A stretch of 64,000 nucleotides of DNA from Pseudomonas mosselii. GTDB taxonomy: Bacteria > Pseudomonadota > Gammaproteobacteria > Pseudomonadales > Pseudomonadaceae. The DNA lies in NCBI RefSeq assembly GCF_019823065.1, contig NZ_CP081966.1, positions 5,053,501 through 5,117,500 of the forward strand, in the 5' to 3' direction. Within the stretch, counting starts at the first letter, position 1, and each line of letters starts with the position of its first letter. Positions 2,225-64,000 of the stretch are shown piece by piece. Both the position numbers and the translations under genes were made by a program. The notes beneath the pieces were generated by a model, which made no database searches, was not told the DNA's origin, and saw only the letters and a list, made by a program, of their open reading frames with translations.

Positions 2225-3226
2225 ATGACCCTACGCATCGCCATCAACGGATTCGGCCGCATCGGACGCAACGTCCTGCGCGCACTGTACACGCAGGGCT
2301 ACCGCCAGGACCTACAGGTCGTCGCCATCAACGACCTGGGCGACAGCGCGATGAACGCCCACCTGCTCAAGTACGACAGCGTCCACGGCATTTTCGAAGC
2401 CAGCGTCGAGGCCGACCATGAAAGCCTCACCGTCAATGGCGACCGCATCGCCGTCAGCGCCATCCGCAACCCCGCCGAATTACCCTGGAAGACCCTGGCC
2501 ATCGATGTGGTGTTCGAGTGCACCGGGCTGTTTACCGAACGCGCCAAGGCCGCCGCGCACCTGACGGCCGGCGCCGCCAAGGTCATCGTCAGCGCGCCGG
2601 CCAAGGGCGCCGACGCCACCGTGGTGTACGGGGTCAACCACGACGTGCTGCGCGCCTCGCACCAGATCATCTCCAACGCCTCGTGCACCACCAACTGCCT
2701 GGCGCCGATCGCCCAGGTGCTGCACCGCGAGTTCGGCATCGAGCAAGGCCTGATGACCACCATCCACGCCTACACCAACGACCAGGTGCTTACCGACGTC
2801 TACCACGGCGACCCGTACCGCGCCCGCTCGGCCACCCAGTCGATGATCCCGAGCAAGACCGGCGCCGCCGAAGCCGTGGGCCTGGTGCTGCCGGAGCTGG
2901 CCGGCAAGCTCACCGGCATGGCCGTGCGGGTGCCAGTGATCAACGTGTCGCTGATCGACCTCACGGTCAACCTCAAGCGCGAGGCCAGCGCCGACGAAGT
3001 CAACCAGCTGTTCCTCGAAGCCAGCCGCCACTCGCGGGTGCTGGGCTACAACGCCCTGCCGCTGGTGTCGTGCGACTTCAACCACAACCCGCTGTCGTCG
3101 ATCTTCGACGCCAACCACACCCGCGCCAACGGGCGCATGCTCAAGGTGCTGGCCTGGTACGACAACGAATGGGGCTTCTCCAACCGCATGCTGGACAACT
3201 GCCTGGCGTTGTTCAACGCCAGGTGA
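2225..3226 (+). CDS. gap: Glyceraldehyde-3-phosphate dehydrogenase, type I
   Basis: A 333-residue NAD(P)-dependent GAPDH. The N-terminal INGFGRIGR is the Rossmann nucleotide-binding loop. The catalytic Cys is C154 in [12 protein letters not shown] and the activating His is H181 in [10 protein letters not shown]; the C-terminal [12 protein letters not shown] is typical. ATG 2225 is chosen over an in-frame TTG at 2186 because it follows an AGAGG ribosome-binding site (2212-2217) and gives the usual start [13 protein letters not shown]. It is divergent from edd, so this copy probably serves glucose catabolism under HexR control. Confidence 0.96.
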
Positions 3227-3270
3227 ATGTTTACGCGATCCCTTGCAGGTGATCGTGCAGAGAGCTGTAT

Positions 3271-3391
3271 CCCTGTGGGAGCGGCCTTGCGTCGCGAAAG
3301 GGGCGCGTAGCGGCCCCAGATTCTGAGCCATCTTCGAAATTGCCGGGGCTGCTGCGCAGCCCTTTCGCGACGCAAGGCCGCTCCCACAGGG
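3271..3391. repeat. REP-type inverted repeat pair
   Basis: A 30-nt sequence at 3271-3300, with core GAGCGGCCTTGCGTCGCGAA, is repeated as a perfect reverse complement at 3362-3391 around a 61-nt spacer. It is placed after gap and belongs to the same class as the repeats at 33091, 35954 and 50904. It could stabilise or end the gap transcript. Confidence 0.8.
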
Positions 3392-3505
3392 GGGTAGTTC
3401 CCTACGCGACAGCGTAGCCCGCAGGGCTGGGTGGTCTCCTAAAGAGACCGCGTTAGCCGCAAGATTTACCTGTTCGTGACATTTCCACGCTTGACCTGGA
3501 GCATG

Positions 3506-3524
3506 GATGATAAGCATTATCATT
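3506..3524. promoter_or_regulatory. Fur box upstream of ECF sigma gene
   Basis: The 19-mer contains a perfect inverted repeat ATGATAA-GCA-TTATCAT (3507-3523), close to the Fur consensus. It sits 26 bp before the sigma-factor start, so transcription of the sigma/anti-sigma pair is expected to be repressed by iron-loaded Fur. A nearly identical core lies before hugZ at 50841. Confidence 0.8.
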
Positions 3525-3549
3525 CACCCGAAAACGCCCAGGTTTCCCC

Positions 3550-4062
3550 GTGAGTCAGTCCCGGTTCAACTCCGTGTTCCTCAGCCAGCGCCTCTCCCTG
3601 CTGCGCACCTTGCAACGCATGGTGGGCAACCCCAGCACCGCCGAGGACCTGCTGCAGGAAACCTACCTGCGAGTCACCCGCGCCCTGGGCGAGCGGCCGA
3701 TCGAGCACCTCGAACCCTTCGTTTTCCAGACCGCCCGCAACCTGGCCCTGGACCACCTGCGCGCACGTCGGGTGCAGGCGCGCACGCTGGTGGACGATGT
3801 GCCCGAGCAGGTCCTGCACAATGTCGCCGCCCCCTCGACCAGCAGCGAGGACGCCGCCCACGCCGAGCAACTGCTCAAGCACCTGAGCGTCAGCCTCGGC
3901 CAGCTCAGCGAACGCCAGCAGCGCATCTTCATCCTCAGCCGCCTGCACGGCGCCAGCTACCTGGAAATCGCCGACCAACTGAAGGTCTCGGCCAGTACGG
4001 TGCAGAAAGAGCTGAAACTGATCATGGCCATCTGCATGGGCGTGGCCGATCGTCACCAGTGA
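3550..4062 (+). CDS. FecI-type ECF RNA polymerase sigma factor
   Basis: A 170-residue iron-starvation ECF sigma factor. Region 2 is recognisable (AEDLLQETYLRV, then PFVFQTARNLALDHLRARR), as is the region 4 helix-turn-helix (LSERQQRIFILSRLHGASYLEIADQLKVSASTVQKELK). The start is GTG 3550, preceded by a weak AGG. It is followed by a FecR-type regulator and a TonB receptor with a signalling domain, so it is expected to transcribe that receptor gene when heme occupies the receptor. It resembles HxuI of P. aeruginosa by context; exact orthology is inferred. Confidence 0.9.
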   Translation: MSQSRFNSVFLSQRLSLLRTLQRMVGNPSTAEDLLQETYLRVTRALGERPIEHLEPFVFQTARNLALDHLRARRVQARTLVDDVPEQVLHNVAAPSTSSEDAAHAEQLLKHLSVSLGQLSERQQRIFILSRLHGASYLEIADQLKVSASTVQKELKLIMAICMGVADRHQ

Positions 4063-55809: not shown

Positions 55810-56406
55810 ATGGCTTTTGAATTGCCGCCGCTGCCGTACGCCCACGATGCCCTGCAGCCGCACATCTCCAAGGAAACCCTGGAGTTTCACCACGACAAGC
55901 ACCACAACACCTATGTCGTGAACCTGAACAACCTGGTCCCAGGCACCGAATTCGAAGGCAAGACCCTGGAAGAGATCGTCAAGAGCTCTTCGGGCGGCAT
56001 CTTCAACAACGCAGCCCAGGTCTGGAACCACACCTTCTACTGGAACTGCCTGTCGCCAAACGGCGGCGGCCAGCCAACCGGCGCCCTGGCTGACGCCATC
56101 ACCGCCGCGTTCGGTTCGTTCGACAAGTTCAAGGAAGAGTTCACCAAGACTTCGGTCGGCACCTTCGGCTCCGGCTGGGGCTGGCTGGTGAAGAAGGCCG
56201 ACGGTTCCCTGGCCCTGGCCAGCACCATCGGCGCCGGCTGCCCGCTGACCAGCGGCGACACCCCGCTGCTGACCTGCGACGTCTGGGAACACGCCTACTA
56301 CATCGACTACCGCAACCTGCGTCCGAAGTACGTCGAGGCCTTCTGGAATCTGGTCAACTGGGCCTTCGTTGCCGAGCAGTTCGAAGGCAAGACCTTCAAG
56401 GCCTGA
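55810..56406 (+). CDS. sodB: Iron superoxide dismutase
   Basis: A 198-residue Fe-SOD ([36 protein letters not shown]). Metal ligands are the His in [14 protein letters not shown], and Asp/His in [15 protein letters not shown] precedes the ATG. A terminator follows 22 bp after the stop; its T-tract is the apparent integration site of the element to the right. Confidence 0.96.
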
Positions 56407-56428: not shown

Positions 56429-56453
56429 ACCCGGCCTGAGTGCCGGGTTTTTT
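56429..56453 (+). terminator. sodB terminator, also host of att site
   Basis: ACCCGGC/GCCGGGT stem (56429-56435 with 56442-56448), 6-nt loop, then five further T residues. Confidence 0.9.
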
Positions 56454-56455
56454 GT
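56448..56455. other. Candidate attachment site (attL) of the integrated element
   Basis: TTTTTTGT fits the TTTTTYRT core I recall for Tn4371-type ICEs. It lies 175 bp upstream of the integrase, exactly where the ordinary core genome ends. The partner site is outside the window, so this is a hypothesis. Confidence 0.45.
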
Positions 56456-56630
56456 TTCACGATGACTCCAGCCCGGTAGTTCGCTGGACTGCGACGTAGC
56501 CCGATACAACAGGTTTATCAATAGCTTACGCGCGTCCATCATATGCCGGTGCTTTCTGAAACTTGACCCGGTTCTCCCTCGCGCCGCTCCTATCTGGCTC
56601 CTGGAATCCGGGTCGTTCCAAGGAGTCATC

Positions 56631-57830
56631 ATGGCAAAGATCAAGCTCACCAAGACCGCCGTAGAGTCGGCGCAACCCCAGGCGAAGGACATCGAACTAC
56701 GGGATACCGTCGTGCCCGGCTTCCTTTGCAAGATTACCCCGACGGGACGCCGGGTGTTCATGCTCCAGTACCGCACGAACTCTGGCCAGCCCCGCAAGCC
56801 CTCGCTGGGACTCTACGGGGAGCTAACCGTCGAACAGGCGCGGGTCAAAGCGCAGGACTGGCTGGCCGAGGTTCGCCGGGGTGGTGATCCCGGCGGTGCC
56901 AAGGCCGAGGCGCGCAAGGCGCCCACGATGGCCGAGTTGTGCAAAAAGTTCATGGAGGACTACTCCAAGAAGCGCAACAAGGTCAGCACGCAGGACGGCT
57001 ACCAGGGCGTCATCGACCGCAACATCATCCCGCTGCTGGGCCGCAAGAAGGTGCATGACGTGAAGCGGCCCGACATTGCGGGGCTCATGGAAAAGCTGGC
57101 CTACAAGCCGACCGAGGCCAACAAGACCTTCGGCGTGCTGCGCAAGATGTTCAACTTGGCCGAAGTCTGGGGCTTCCGCCCGGACGGTACGAATCCGTGC
57201 CGCCACGTCCCGATGTACCCGCCGGGCAAGGAAACCCGGCTCATCGTGGACGAGGAAATGGTGCGGATCTTCCGCCAGTTGGAGAAACTGGAGGCGGAGG
57301 GGCTGGAGAACTACGTCATCCCGTTGGCGATCCGGCTGCAATTCGAGTTTGCGGCGCGGCGCTCCGAAATCTGCCCGCTCGAATGGAGCTGGCTGGACTT
57401 CGAGAACCGGCGCGTGGTGTGGCCCGACAGCAAGGTTGGCGGCATTTCCAAGCCCATGAGCGAGGAAGCCTATCGGCTGCTTTCGACGGCGCCGCGTCTG
57501 GAAGGCTGCCCTTACGTCCTGCCGTCGCCGAACGACCCGGCCAAGCACCTGACCTTTGGCGAGCACTATGGCGGCTGGTGCCGGACGCTCAAGGCCGCCA
57601 GCGTGCCGCACGTAGGCACGCACGGCATCCGTCATCGCTCGACCACCGACATTGCCAATTCCGGTGTGCCGACCAAAGTGGGAATGAAGCTGACGGGCCA
57701 CAAGACCGTGGCGATGTTCATGCACTACGTCCACACCGAGGACAAGCCGGTGCGCGAGGCGGCCGAGCTGGTGGCCAGCCGCCGCCAAGCCATCACGGGC
57801 GCGCGGCAGCTTGCGGAGGCGGTGGCATGA
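56631..57830 (+). CDS. int: Tyrosine recombinase/integrase
   Basis: A 399-residue integrase. The N-terminal DUF4102-type arm-binding domain (IKLTKTAVESAQPQAKDIEL to about 95) is followed by a SAM-like core-binding domain (97-190) and the catalytic domain with R243/R244 (FAARRSEICPLEW), H331-x-x-R334 (HGIRHRSTTD), H357 (LTGHKTV) and nucleophile Y366. AAGGAG precedes the ATG. It looks intact and should catalyse integration and excision. It overlaps the next gene by 4 nt (ATGA). Confidence 0.93.
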   Translation: MAKIKLTKTAVESAQPQAKDIELRDTVVPGFLCKITPTGRRVFMLQYRTNSGQPRKPSLGLYGELTVEQARVKAQDWLAEVRRGGDPGGAKAEARKAPTMAELCKKFMEDYSKKRNKVSTQDGYQGVIDRNIIPLLGRKKVHDVKRPDIAGLMEKLAYKPTEANKTFGVLRKMFNLAEVWGFRPDGTNPCRHVPMYPPGKETRLIVDEEMVRIFRQLEKLEAEGLENYVIPLAIRLQFEFAARRSEICPLEWSWLDFENRRVVWPDSKVGGISKPMSEEAYRLLSTAPRLEGCPYVLPSPNDPAKHLTFGEHYGGWCRTLKAASVPHVGTHGIRHRSTTDIANSGVPTKVGMKLTGHKTVAMFMHYVHTEDKPVREAAELVASRRQAITGARQLAEAVA

Positions 57831-59242: not shown

Positions 59243-59752
59243 ATGTCGCAACTGTCCTTTCCCTCGTTCGATTCCTGTCTGCTGGTGCGCGACGCGCACG
59301 GGCGCTATCTACCGGCATCGGCCGACGACATTCTGGAAGCTGCGCGCCAGGTCATTGACCGGAAAATGCAGCGCGGAGCAGAGTTCACTTCGCCGGCGGC
59401 GGTCAAGGAATACTTGCGTACAAAGTTGGCCAGCTTCGAGCATGAGGTGTTCGTAGTGCTGTTCATGGATACGCGCCATCGTCTGATCGAATACAGGGAG
59501 ATGTTCCACGGCACTATTGACGGTGCGTCGGTGTATCCGCGCGAAGTGGTCAAGGAGGCGCTGCGGCTCAATGCGGCGGCGGTCGTCGTTTCGCACAACC
59601 ATCCGAGCGGAAACCCCGAGCCGAGCGCGGCTGACCGGGCGCTGACCCAGCGGCTCAAGGAAGCGTTGGGTCTGGTGGACGTGCGCGTGCTCGATCACAT
59701 CATCGTTGCGGGCAACGAAACGGCATCGTTCGCCGAGCATGGGCTGATCTAG
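59243..59752 (+). CDS. radC: RadC-family JAB domain protein
   Basis: A 169-residue protein, mostly the JAB/MPN+ metalloprotease-like domain: metal ligands H118 and H120 in VVSHNHPSGNPEPSAAD with D131. It lacks the N-terminal helix-hairpin-helix part of chromosomal RadC, the short form typical of mobile elements. The catalytic activity and substrate of such RadC proteins are unproven. Confidence 0.9.
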   Translation: MSQLSFPSFDSCLLVRDAHGRYLPASADDILEAARQVIDRKMQRGAEFTSPAAVKEYLRTKLASFEHEVFVVLFMDTRHRLIEYREMFHGTIDGASVYPREVVKEALRLNAAAVVVSHNHPSGNPEPSAADRALTQRLKEALGLVDVRVLDHIIVAGNETASFAEHGLI

Positions 59753-60250
59753 CCCAAGGGGCTTCGGCCCCTTTTTGCTGCGCCTGGTGGCATAGCTATG
59801 GCCCTCGCGGCCTGATGCTCAGGCCGTCGCAACCTGAATCATCTCGTCGTAATGTTTCTTGTCCACCTCTTCCAGCCACTGGAAGATGTTCCCGATGACG
59901 CTGTGGCTTTCGCCTGCCAAGTTTTCTGCGGATTCCTCTGTTATCTCAATAACGTCGCTATGTGAATACTTATTGATAAAGCGGTAGATTTTTTCTTTAA
60001 GCTCTGGTGTCGTGATGGTGCAATCTTTTAGGCCAGCCTCCATCAATTGACTAATGTCGCTTCGCCGCCTTGGATATTTGAAGGTAAAAAACGATTCAAC
60101 AAGCTTTCGGGCGAGGTTGGCGGTCAAGAACGCCTCATCTCGATTGAGTGTCGTGTGCGCCCTATATTCGTAAAGCTTCTTGAAGATATAGTGGTACTCG
60201 CGACGTCCCCCCGAGATTGAGTAGCGAAGCGGTTTGGAGTCCAATCCTCA

Positions 60251-60532
60251 ATGAGAAGGAGATTGGACGTGAAGAAGCGCTTTTCCGAAGAGCAGATCAT
60301 CGGCTTCCTACGCGAAGCTGAGGCCGGCATGCCCATCAAGGACCTCTGCCGCCAGCATGGCTTTAGCGAGGCCTCGTACTACCTGTGGCGCAGCAAGTTC
60401 GGCGGCATGAGCGTGCCCGACGCCAAGCGGCTCAAGGACCTGGAGGCGGAGAACACACGCCTGAAGAAGCTACTGGCAGAACAGGTCTTCGAGAACGACG
60501 TCATCAAGGATGCGTTGCGAAAAAAGTGGTGA
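60251..60532 (+). CDS. IS3-family transposase OrfA
   Basis: A 93-residue helix-turn-helix protein (KKRFSEEQIIGFLREAEAGM) with a C-terminal leucine zipper (LKDLEAENTRLKKLLAEQVF). The real start may be GTG 60269. It ends just after a slippery A6G (60520-60526), where ribosomes can shift -1 to make OrfAB. Confidence 0.93.
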   Translation: MRRRLDVKKRFSEEQIIGFLREAEAGMPIKDLCRQHGFSEASYYLWRSKFGGMSVPDAKRLKDLEAENTRLKKLLAEQVFENDVIKDALRKKW

Positions 60533-61374
60533 CCGCACCGGCGCGCAGGCTGCTGGTGCGGAGCATGGTCGAGAAGGGATTGAGCGAGCGGCGAGCGCTG
60601 ACGGTGGTGCGGATGAGCGCTAGCGCGCTGCGCTATGAGCCTCGGGCCGACCGCAACGTTGAGCTGCGCGAGCAGATCGCTGCGCTGGCGCATCGGCACA
60701 GACGCTACGGGGTGGGCATGATCCATTTGAAATTGCGGCAGAAAGGGCTTGTCGTGAACTACAAGCGAGTGGAGCGCCTGTATCAGGAAGCGGGCCTGCA
60801 GGTGCGTCGCAGAAAGCGTAAGAAGGTGCCGATAGGCGAGCGCCAGCCCCTCCTGCGGCCGTCCGCTGCCAATGAGGTGTGGTCGATGGACTTCGTGTTC
60901 GACCGCACCGCGGAAGGCCGGGTGATCAAGTGCCTGACCATCGTCGACGACGCCACCCACGAGGCTGTGGCCATCGAAGTGGAGCGGGCAATTTCCGGGC
61001 AAGGCGTGTCCAGGGTGCTGGACAGGCTGGCCATGCAGCGCGGCTTGCCACGAGTGATCAGGACAGACAACGGCAAGGAGTTTTGCGGTAAGGCGATGGT
61101 GGCCTGGGCTCACGAAAAGGAAGTTGCCCTGCGTCTGATCGAACCAGGCAAGCCGAACCAGAATGCTTACGTCGAGTCTTTCAACGGGCGTTTACGCGAT
61201 GAATGCCTCAACGAGCACTGGTTCCCGACATTGCTTCATGCCCGTACCAGCATCGAAAGCTGGCGGCGCGACTACAACGAAGAAAGGCCCAAAAGAGCGC
61301 TTGGCGGACTAACGCCCGCCCAGTACGCCGCGCAGTTGGCGACGAAGAAAGATAACATCAGCACCGGACTCTAA
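60526..61374 (+). CDS. IS3-family transposase OrfB (DDE integrase)
   Basis: The catalytic DDE domain: VWSMDFVFD, RTDNGKEF and NAYVESFNGRLRDE give D, D and E. It is in the -1 frame relative to orfA; its open frame begins further upstream (60385), so it is made mainly as an OrfAB fusion via AAAAAAG at 60520-60526. It ends 32 bp before the right end of the IS. Confidence 0.93.
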   Translation: MVTAPARRLLVRSMVEKGLSERRALTVVRMSASALRYEPRADRNVELREQIAALAHRHRRYGVGMIHLKLRQKGLVVNYKRVERLYQEAGLQVRRRKRKKVPIGERQPLLRPSAANEVWSMDFVFDRTAEGRVIKCLTIVDDATHEAVAIEVERAISGQGVSRVLDRLAMQRGLPRVIRTDNGKEFCGKAMVAWAHEKEVALRLIEPGKPNQNAYVESFNGRLRDECLNEHWFPTLLHARTSIESWRRDYNEERPKRALGGLTPAQYAAQLATKKDNISTGL

Positions 61375-63315
61375 ACCCGCCCACTACTCAAGCCGGGGGG
61401 ACGTCGCTCGGAACCGTAGTTCTTGAGTGAGTCGTCGGCATCCACAAGTAGGGAGTGACGAGGGGAGCCAGGTGGCGCATCCAGGCGATAAAAGAAGCAA
61501 TTCTCGGCGTTGCCTTTTTTGACTCGATTCCTATTGGTGCCAGTGAACCAGTCTCTCACTAGCTTAAAGTAAGTGAAGTTGTGAGTCAGCACAAAAAGTT
61601 GCTTGGCTTCAGTGCATTGCGTTCTCAAAAACGAGTAGGCGTGAAACAAGTGATTAGAATCAAAGCTTGAGACCGGATCGTCAACGACGACGATCGTATC
61701 CTTGATGTTATTTCCATTTTCTTTGAGCTTCGTGATGAAATAGACAAATGCAATCGCAGTCTTCTCACCTTCGCTCAAATTCCCATCGTGCTCACCAACC
61801 CCGTTTCTGATGATCTCATAGCCTTTCTTCTTCTGATTGAAGTTCAGGCAAAGCTCAGAGCGGCCAATGAAGCGATGCAGGATGTCATTGAACTCCTTTG
61901 CCCCGACCGTTTCATTCGAGAGCGCCGCTTCTATGGCTCCGACCTCTAGACTAATTTTTTCAATTTCCTTATGGTCGTTCTTTGCTTCTGACTCAAGGTC
62001 ATTGCACTTCTTCTCACTTCCAGCATAGTCAAACTCTTGCACCTCAGCCGCAGCAAAGTGAAGCTCCAGTGCCACCTTGCTTTTTGAGGTCTCAGATTTG
62101 AAATTTGAAGTCTTATTGTTGTGCTTTCCAACGAGAGCAACAATCGACTTCAGGATGTCATTGAAATTGGTGACATCGTCTTCAACCACATCCGAGATCT
62201 GAATGTCTGTCTTCCCAGGGTCTGTGATCTTGGCCTTCAGGGCTTCCCGCCAGGCGTCCATTTGCTGGTCGATCTTTTCAGCAGCAGTTGCGTAGTCCTT
62301 TTGAAGCTTTTCTGCCTCGGCCGATAGTTCTTTATAAAACTCGGTCGATGCGGGAAACTGATTAGCTGGAGCGCCTTGAGATTCAATCCATGTCGCCGCA
62401 TTCTGAAGTCGGCTCTGAAACTCCGTGAACTCCTTGCTGAAGTGGGCAGCAAGCGCCTCGGCACGAAGCTGGGCGAACGGAGAGCCGCAGAACTCGCAGG
62501 ATTGCGAGTCGTGGTTTTTATGGATTTCCAAGCCTGCTTGAACCCATTCGCGGATGTCCGGGTTATCGGTAAGCCGCTGGATTGCTTGATTGACCGCCGT
62601 AGTCCCAATCAAATCTCTGATGCGGCCCGCCGCTTTCTTAAAGTAGTCCGGCTCAATGGCCGTTGAGGCGAAAGCAATGCTTGGAAGCTGATCTGGCTTG
62701 GCGGCATTCGTAAGGTCGATAACCCTCTCATCTGGAAGAACCGACTCCGCCTTGATAATTGTCTCGCCGTTATTCTGTATGAAGTTGGAGAGCTTGCGGC
62801 GGTCGTAATTCAAGTAATAACTGTCGCTCGTATCAATCGCCTGAAGTCCAAGCTTCATTTTCTTGGCAGCATTGGTCAGGAACTTCTCTAATGCCTCACG
62901 CTGCTTCTTGATATCGCTTTGCTTGTCGTCGTGAGCCTTCTTTTTCGACTGAAGCTCGCTCTTCAGCTTCTCCAGCTTCTGCAAGTCATCAATCTTCTCT
63001 TTCGCAATAAGAAGGATGCTCTTTACGGATTTGTCCCAATCAATGTTCTCATGCACGAAGCGTTGATTGAAAACATGAATATTCAATTGGGATGAGTGGA
63101 GTGTGGATTCCGTGATCGTTGAGCCATCCTCCAGAACTACTGAAAATTGGCCCGTGCTGAAGCGGGGAACCATCGAGCGAAGCTCAAAGCAAGAGAATAG
63201 ATTCGATAACGTTGACTTGCCTGTTCCATTCCAACCATAGACCAGGTTGTACCGGCCGAACTTTTGGATCTTCGTTCCATTGAAGTCGCTGAAGATTCGA
63301 GCCTGTAAATCCAAT

Positions 63316-64000
63316 TGTGTAACCGCCCACGAATAAGTAACTTTTTCAAAAGGATACCTTCGTGGGTAAGCAAATGGACCAAGACAAACTCAAAGCACTG
63401 GCTGCTGAGCTGGCCAAAGACATCAAGTCTGAAAAAGATCTCGGCACCCTCACCCAACAGCTGATCAAGCTCACCGTCGAAACCGCGCTCAATGCCGAAA
63501 TGGACGAGCATCTGGGCTACGAGAAACACGCCCCACAAGGCCGCGGGACCGGCAACAATCGCAATGGCTATTCCACCAAACGCCTAAAAGGGCAGCACGG
63601 AGAAGTCACCATCCAGGCTCCTCGTGACCGTAACTCGTCCTTCGAGCCTCAGTTTGTCCGCAAGGGCCAGTCCCGCCTGACCCAGATGGACGACCAGATC
63701 CTCGCCCTCTACGCAAAGGGCTTGAGCACGCGGGATATCGTTGACGCATTCAAAGAGATGTATGACGCCGACATCTCGGCGGGGCTGGTATCGAAGGTGA
63801 CCGAACGTGTCATCGAGCAGGTCCACGAATGGCAAAACCGGCCGCTGGATCCGCTCTATCCCATCGTTTATCTGGACTGCATTGTGCTGAAGATCCGCGC
63901 GAACCAGAGGGTGATCAACAAGTCGCTCTATCTGGCACTGGGCATCAATATGGAGGGTCACAAGGAGCTGCTGGGCCTGTGGCTGGCCGAGACCGAAGGG
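63316..64000 (+). mobile_element. Second IS256-family element, cut by window end
   Basis: Starts near the TGTGTAACCGCCCACG sequence just outside the ATPase reading frame; the left terminus is approximate. It carries a transposase frame that runs off the window. It is different from the IS256-family element at 41026. Confidence 0.8.
63374..64000 (+). CDS. IS256-family transposase, N-terminal 209 codons
   Basis: Begins MDQDKLKALAAELAKDIKSE and continues with TVETALNAEMDEHLGYEKH, GNNRNGYSTKRL, MDDQILALYAKGLSTRDIV and the first catalytic Asp region YPIVYLDCIVLKIRAN. No stop codon before the window end. The ATG is preceded by GGGTAAG. The rest of the DDE domain lies outside the window. Confidence 0.92.
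   Translation, partial: MDQDKLKALAAELAKDIKSEKDLGTLTQQLIKLTVETALNAEMDEHLGYEKHAPQGRGTGNNRNGYSTKRLKGQHGEVTIQAPRDRNSSFEPQFVRKGQSRLTQMDDQILALYAKGLSTRDIVDAFKEMYDADISAGLVSKVTERVIEQVHEWQNRPLDPLYPIVYLDCIVLKIRANQRVINKSLYLALGINMEGHKELLGLWLAETEG

Follow-up and report, generated by a model that had tools for sequence, protein, structure and literature searches.

RloC-type anticodon nucleases and the locus studied here

RloC is an anticodon nuclease that has been characterised in Geobacillus kaustophilus and Acinetobacter baylyi. In its description (PMC2610378), RloC is defined by ABC motifs like those of PrrC, a coiled-coil insert with a CxxC motif and an R-x3-E-x36-52-H pattern in which a serine often precedes the histidine. 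The published mutants of the G. kaustophilus protein (R692, E696 and H737; same source) fall in the same spacing class as the gene described here. For A. baylyi RloC, activation by an inducer of DNA breaks is reported (PMC3874168). The present work concerns a gene in a stretch of 64,000 nucleotides of Pseudomonas mosselii (assembly GCF_019823065.1, contig NZ_CP081966.1, positions 5,053,501 to 5,117,500), which is referred to as the window. We read it, with a probability of about 85%, as the gene of an RloC-type anticodon nuclease that belongs to the cargo of a Tn4371-type integrative and conjugative element (ICE) and is broken here by two insertion sequence (IS) elements.

By analogy with the RloC proteins characterised in G. 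kaustophilus and A. baylyi, the intact protein would sense DNA breaks, cleave tRNA and act in defence. Linear or broken DNA would be recognised by its Rad50-like ABC ATPase head with the coiled coil and zinc hook, and ATP hydrolysis would then release the C-terminal HEPN RNase. The RNase would cut tRNA anticodon loops, with excision of the wobble nucleotide if it acts as the studied RloC proteins do, and tRNA cleavage would stop translation and phage growth. In Pseudomonas strains, RloC has been correlated with phage susceptibility (PMC12447246). This speaks against a simple defence role.

The interrupted gene

The gene is left on the minus strand as two open reading frames (ORFs), 61371-63314 (647 aa, TTG start) and 59819-60244 (141 aa), and a transposase pair lies between them on the opposite strand. 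The 647-aa frame holds GWNGTGKS, CEFC, LSEGEK and VVVDDP, and the 141-aa frame holds RKLVE and RFINKYSH; every motif named in the original prediction was found in its place. Residues are numbered here in a 767-residue protein whose first residue is the start methionine of most listed homologues, and the positions first given as R666, E670, R708 and H715 are R672, E676, R714 and H721 in this numbering. The intact protein has 767 aa from this common start and 818 aa as annotated on the plasmid copy.

The PF13166 (AAA_13) profile matches the large piece with 607 bits (profile positions 2-617 of 713) and the C-terminal piece with 78 bits (616-713). Judged by sequence, the two pieces are one protein, in which the complete profile appears in two parts, far beyond chance. 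In a genome-wide PF13166 search, these two places were the only matches above the family cut-off. A third match reached 20 bits, below the cut-off, and thus the search found no second gene of the RloC-type family above it in this genome.

The boundaries of the insertions were set by comparing the window with an uninterrupted plasmid locus (the empty site). Intact reference copies are found, for example, on Pseudomonas aeruginosa pPUV-4 and on a Klebsiella michiganensis plasmid. This comparison shows two interruptions of the gene, one by an IS3-family and one by an IS256-family element. The parts of the gene and its insertions are as follows, in window coordinates.

61407..63298, minus strand: RloC-type gene, codons ~12-642, Rad50/SMC-like ABC ATPase head, coiled coil and CxxC zinc hook (PF13166; 100% identity to the intact copy; head folds of a 94%-identical homologue)
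59819..60200, minus strand: RloC-type gene, codons ~642-767 with the stop codon, putative HEPN-like nuclease domain carrying R672-x3-E676-x44-H721 (PF13166; model; identity to the intact copy)
60201..61406, plus strand: IS3-family insertion, 1206 bp, orfA 60251-60532, orfB frame 60385-61374 (transposase genes; empty-site comparison)
60197..60200, no strand: 4-bp target duplication of the IS3-family element, left copy; right copy 61407-61410 (comparison with the intact copy)
63299..64000, plus strand: IS256-family insertion, 1326 bp, first 702 in the window, continuing to C1:5118124; transposase ORF L004:7362-8588 (intact-copy comparison)
63291..63298, no strand: 8-bp target duplication of the IS256-family element, left copy; right copy L004:8625-8632, outside the window (comparison with the intact copy)

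Both insertions are clean, and all codons of the C-terminal domain are still present. Over their aligned 1892 and 458 bp, the two large remnants match the intact plasmid copy at 100% identity, and the stretch past the IS256-type element, where the first codons lie, shows 99.85% identity over 676 bp. The IS3-family break at about codon 642 lies exactly at the boundary of ATPase and nuclease. The original prediction held that an IS had removed exactly the nuclease part; the position was right, but nothing was removed, as the element inserted with a 4-bp duplication and left every codon in place. The IS256-family break lies about 12 codons from the likely gene start, and the TTG start and first residues of the 647-aa ORF derive from the end of this element. 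The prediction probably missed it since it starts 702 bases before the end of the window.

One IS cuts off the start of the gene and the other parts the nuclease domain from the ATPase. Therefore, a full-length protein cannot be made from this locus, and the gene is almost certainly inactive in this genome. From end to end, the IS3-type element shows about 79% identity to elements of the IS1404/IS1389 type on Xanthomonas plasmids, and it has a single match in this genome. The IS256-type element has relatives on Aeromonas plasmids at 94-97% identity, some of them annotated ISAs3, and has one full-length copy in the genome, besides fifteen partial matches of 45 bases. Because each element is single at full length here and its nearest listed relatives are on Aeromonas or Xanthomonas plasmids, both may have come with the ICE, and the gene was perhaps broken before the ICE arrived.

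Assignment to the RloC family

Intact relatives carry C279-x2-C282 and R672-x3-E676-x44-S720-H721, which fits the published RloC pattern, and the length of 767 aa (818 aa as annotated) lies inside the RloC range of 658-897 aa. Of 103 full-length homologues, 102 have the R-x3-E-x36-52-H pattern; P0059, which ends early, is the exception. Conservation was read from 97 aligned relatives, composed of 65 genome loci and 32 of the best 120 listed proteins. The loci come from the best 80 of at least 338 confirmed relatives, after leaving out five whose match is not open (L034, L065, L071, L077 and L083) and those that are near-duplicate, partial, or changed or cut at the C-terminus (L028-L030, L032, L033, L046, L054, L092, L098 and L107). 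The C-terminal alignment holds 64 of the 65 loci (without L059) and the window's own piece.

C279, C282, R672 and H721 are invariant in all 97 relatives, down to 24% identity. Position 676 has E in 89 relatives and D in the other 8, and serine occupies position 720 in 95. G38, K39, S520, G522, E523, D551, D552, P553 and H584 are likewise found in 97 of 97, with the Walker-motif columns biased by the use of Walker-motif patterns to fetch the relatives. The spacing R-x6-H had also been proposed for the nuclease site. RFINKYSH is indeed present, but only R672 of the two arginines is invariant. At position 714, 62 of the 97 have R, 30 have K and 5 have another residue, which makes R714 a less likely candidate for the key arginine.

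Among profiles of defence systems, PADLOC PDC-S06 scores 480 bits on the large piece (profile 12-623 of 740) and 80.5 bits on the C-terminal piece. The PrrC profile scores 35.7 bits on residues 510-601 only (92 residues). An anticodon nuclease of the PrrC type, kept in check by a type I restriction-modification (R-M) system, would account for this match and for the ABC motifs common to both proteins. The protein is twice the length of PrrC and has a zinc hook. In two plasmid copies the annotation, which is perhaps incomplete, shows no hsd gene within 12 kb, and we regard this reading as extremely improbable. The earlier identification of the gene as RloC/PrrC-type is thus borne out on the RloC side, the AAA_13 profile being complete in two pieces and the PrrC profile confined to a short segment.

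A second alternative is an SMC/Rad50-like ATPase that lacks nuclease activity, such as a Lamassu LmuB-like protein or a repair ATPase. The head of the 94%-identical homologue gives Rad50 and SMC head folds as structural matches, Lamassu chains are among its Foldseek rows, and the LmuB profile scores 61 bits. The LmuB match ends at residue 590 of the large piece, over which PDC-S06 scores far higher, and the C-terminal domain with its invariant R and H matches HEPN proteins best. Folded alone, this domain reached a pLDDT of 89.6. In a further model, long helices flank the CxxC hook on both sides. Sequence searches of the PDB gave no match for the large piece with phmmer, only AriA (48 residues) and apolipoprotein A-IV with a profile of 13 relatives, and nothing relevant with a profile of the C-terminal domain. 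An ATPase with no nuclease is very unlikely. The evidence supports an RloC-type protein with an ABC/Rad50-like head, a zinc hook, an R-E-H triad and a probably HEPN-like C-terminal domain.

Selection on the nuclease domain

It had been suggested that the toxic nuclease was selected against, which would make the loss of the HEPN domain adaptive for the host. Several observations agree with this suggestion. The IS3-type element sits precisely where the ATPase part meets HEPN, and G. kaustophilus RloC is reported to limit the growth of E. coli (PMC2610378). In addition, some homologues are cut short before or inside HEPN, namely P0059 (at residue 687), P0067 and P0099 (624), P0095 (654), P0103 (590) and P0113 (557), and P0059 represents a 788-member cluster named as P. 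aeruginosa. These short homologues are from the best 120 by score, among which breaks before about residue 500-555 would not appear, and P0111-P0116, P0120 (no source) and others may be contig edges.

The copies on other replicons show a different picture. The gene is found in 89 plasmid records, 88 of them at ≥99% identity. Of these 88, 59 are listed; 58 are uninterrupted, and the remaining one carries ISPa33 near codon 325 (H145; insertion at 2567-3871 of plasmid copy L108). In tblastn, all 43 listed records at ≥99% identity (of 88) show residues 1-767 undivided. Among nine genome loci at ≥76% identity, seven are intact and two have inserts, of about 1.1 kb near 6485-7597 in L034 (about codon 161) and about 1.4 kb near 7669-9046 in L033 (about codon 560). 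In total, four copies carry five insertions, at points scattered over the gene (codons ~12, ~161, ~325, ~560 and ~642), and just one of the five, in a gene also cut at codon ~12, separates only the nuclease.

The nuclease domain is no less conserved than the ATPase. In six of seven comparisons, the HEPN part has a smaller proportion of nonsynonymous differences (pN) than the ATPase part, and in one (L035) the two are equal. The ratio of nonsynonymous to synonymous substitution rates (dN/dS), where computable, is far below 1 in both parts (0.055 and 0.012 against L028). pN is quoted since dS is unsaturated in the ATPase part in only three of the seven comparisons, and the HEPN dS of L035 is 2.1, near saturation. 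These findings are evidence against selection for nuclease loss, though not final; the suggestion is not supported, and we regard it as unlikely.

The carrier element

The gene order points to the gene as cargo of a Tn4371-type ICE. The Tn4371-family scaffold comprises int, a repA/parA/parB core, traG and trbBCDEJLFGI (PMC2789088). On the plasmid copy, the order is integrase, PDDEXK, RadC, RloC gene, DUF932, ParB, RepA, ParA, S26 peptidase, relaxase, LysR regulator, TraG and trb genes, which agrees with the family scaffold, and the aligned blocks are 95-100% identical in this genome. The blocks run here from about window position 56438 to C1:5159860, and their counterpart of 95-100% identity lies in a P. 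aeruginosa plasmid. A 9-bp direct repeat at both ends gives a chromosomal element of about 49.9 kb. Its features in the window, besides the RloC-type gene, are given below.

56448..56456, no strand: candidate left attachment repeat, 9-bp direct repeat, other copy C1:5159854-5159862 (repeat comparison)
56631..57830, plus strand: ICE tyrosine integrase (Pfam Phage_integrase; same gene in plasmid copies)
57827..58891, plus strand: PDDEXK nuclease, DUF1016/YhcG type (Pfam DUF1016_N, YhcG_C; boundaries vs L005)
59243..59752, plus strand: short RadC-like JAB protein adjoining the RloC gene (Pfam RadC)

The DUF1016/YhcG PDDEXK nuclease directly after the integrase matches PADLOC PDC-S02 with 440 bits and is a second defence candidate on the ICE. 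The segment C1:5127941-5144516 (aligned to L109) is 99.6% identical to the plasmid copy and includes genes of the efflux type, RND and SMR transporters in the plasmid annotation. Just before the ICE, the ORF 55810-56406 is presumably a superoxide dismutase.

In seven of the nine close genome loci, radC stands beside the gene; six of them also have integrase, PDDEXK, DUF932 and ParB (≤6 kb flank). The gene, with an open frame of 821 codons, also occurs at 99% in two genomes of the host's genus, and these copies would fit the two Pseudomonas loci among the relatives. No paper treating Tn4371 together with RloC was found in the literature searched, which leaves out most subscription journals. As a tentative and rather doubtful proposal, RloC may be a stable module of this Tn4371-type ICE branch, kept beside radC across Pseudomonas, Enterobacterales plasmids, Stenotrophomonas and Luteimonas. 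It would serve as the element's own translation switch, triggered by DNA breaks, and shield the element's population against phage or rival mobile DNA in every host that it enters.

Proteins of this kind are already known; what deserves attention is where the gene travels, with near-identical intact copies on many plasmids. An anticodon nuclease borne by a conjugative element, at ≥99% identity in 88 plasmid records, could spread phage resistance with the other cargo, and this would matter for phage therapy. The locus also calls for caution with piece-by-piece scans, which put both fragments above the family cut-off although no complete protein is possible.

Comparison with known systems

Rad50, SbcC and SMC proteins share the head fold and coiled coil with the present protein, and Rad50 and SbcC also have the zinc hook, but they have no HEPN domain. 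PDC-S06 of PADLOC matches both pieces, but it is a label for a defence candidate without a mechanism. PrrC is alike in combining an ABC ATPase with a C-terminal R-E-H anticodon nuclease. However, it has 341-416 aa, lacks a zinc hook and is linked to type Ic R-M systems, whereas the present protein has 767 aa and a CxxC motif. The closest likeness is to RloC of G. kaustophilus and A. baylyi (ACIAD0152), with ABC motifs split by a coiled coil with CxxC, the R-x3-E-x36-52-(S)H pattern, a length of 658-897 aa, a putative HEPN-type C-terminus and seldom an R-M link. This likeness is drawn through the published motif pattern, and the present copy differs in being broken by IS elements and carried as cargo of a Tn4371-type ICE.
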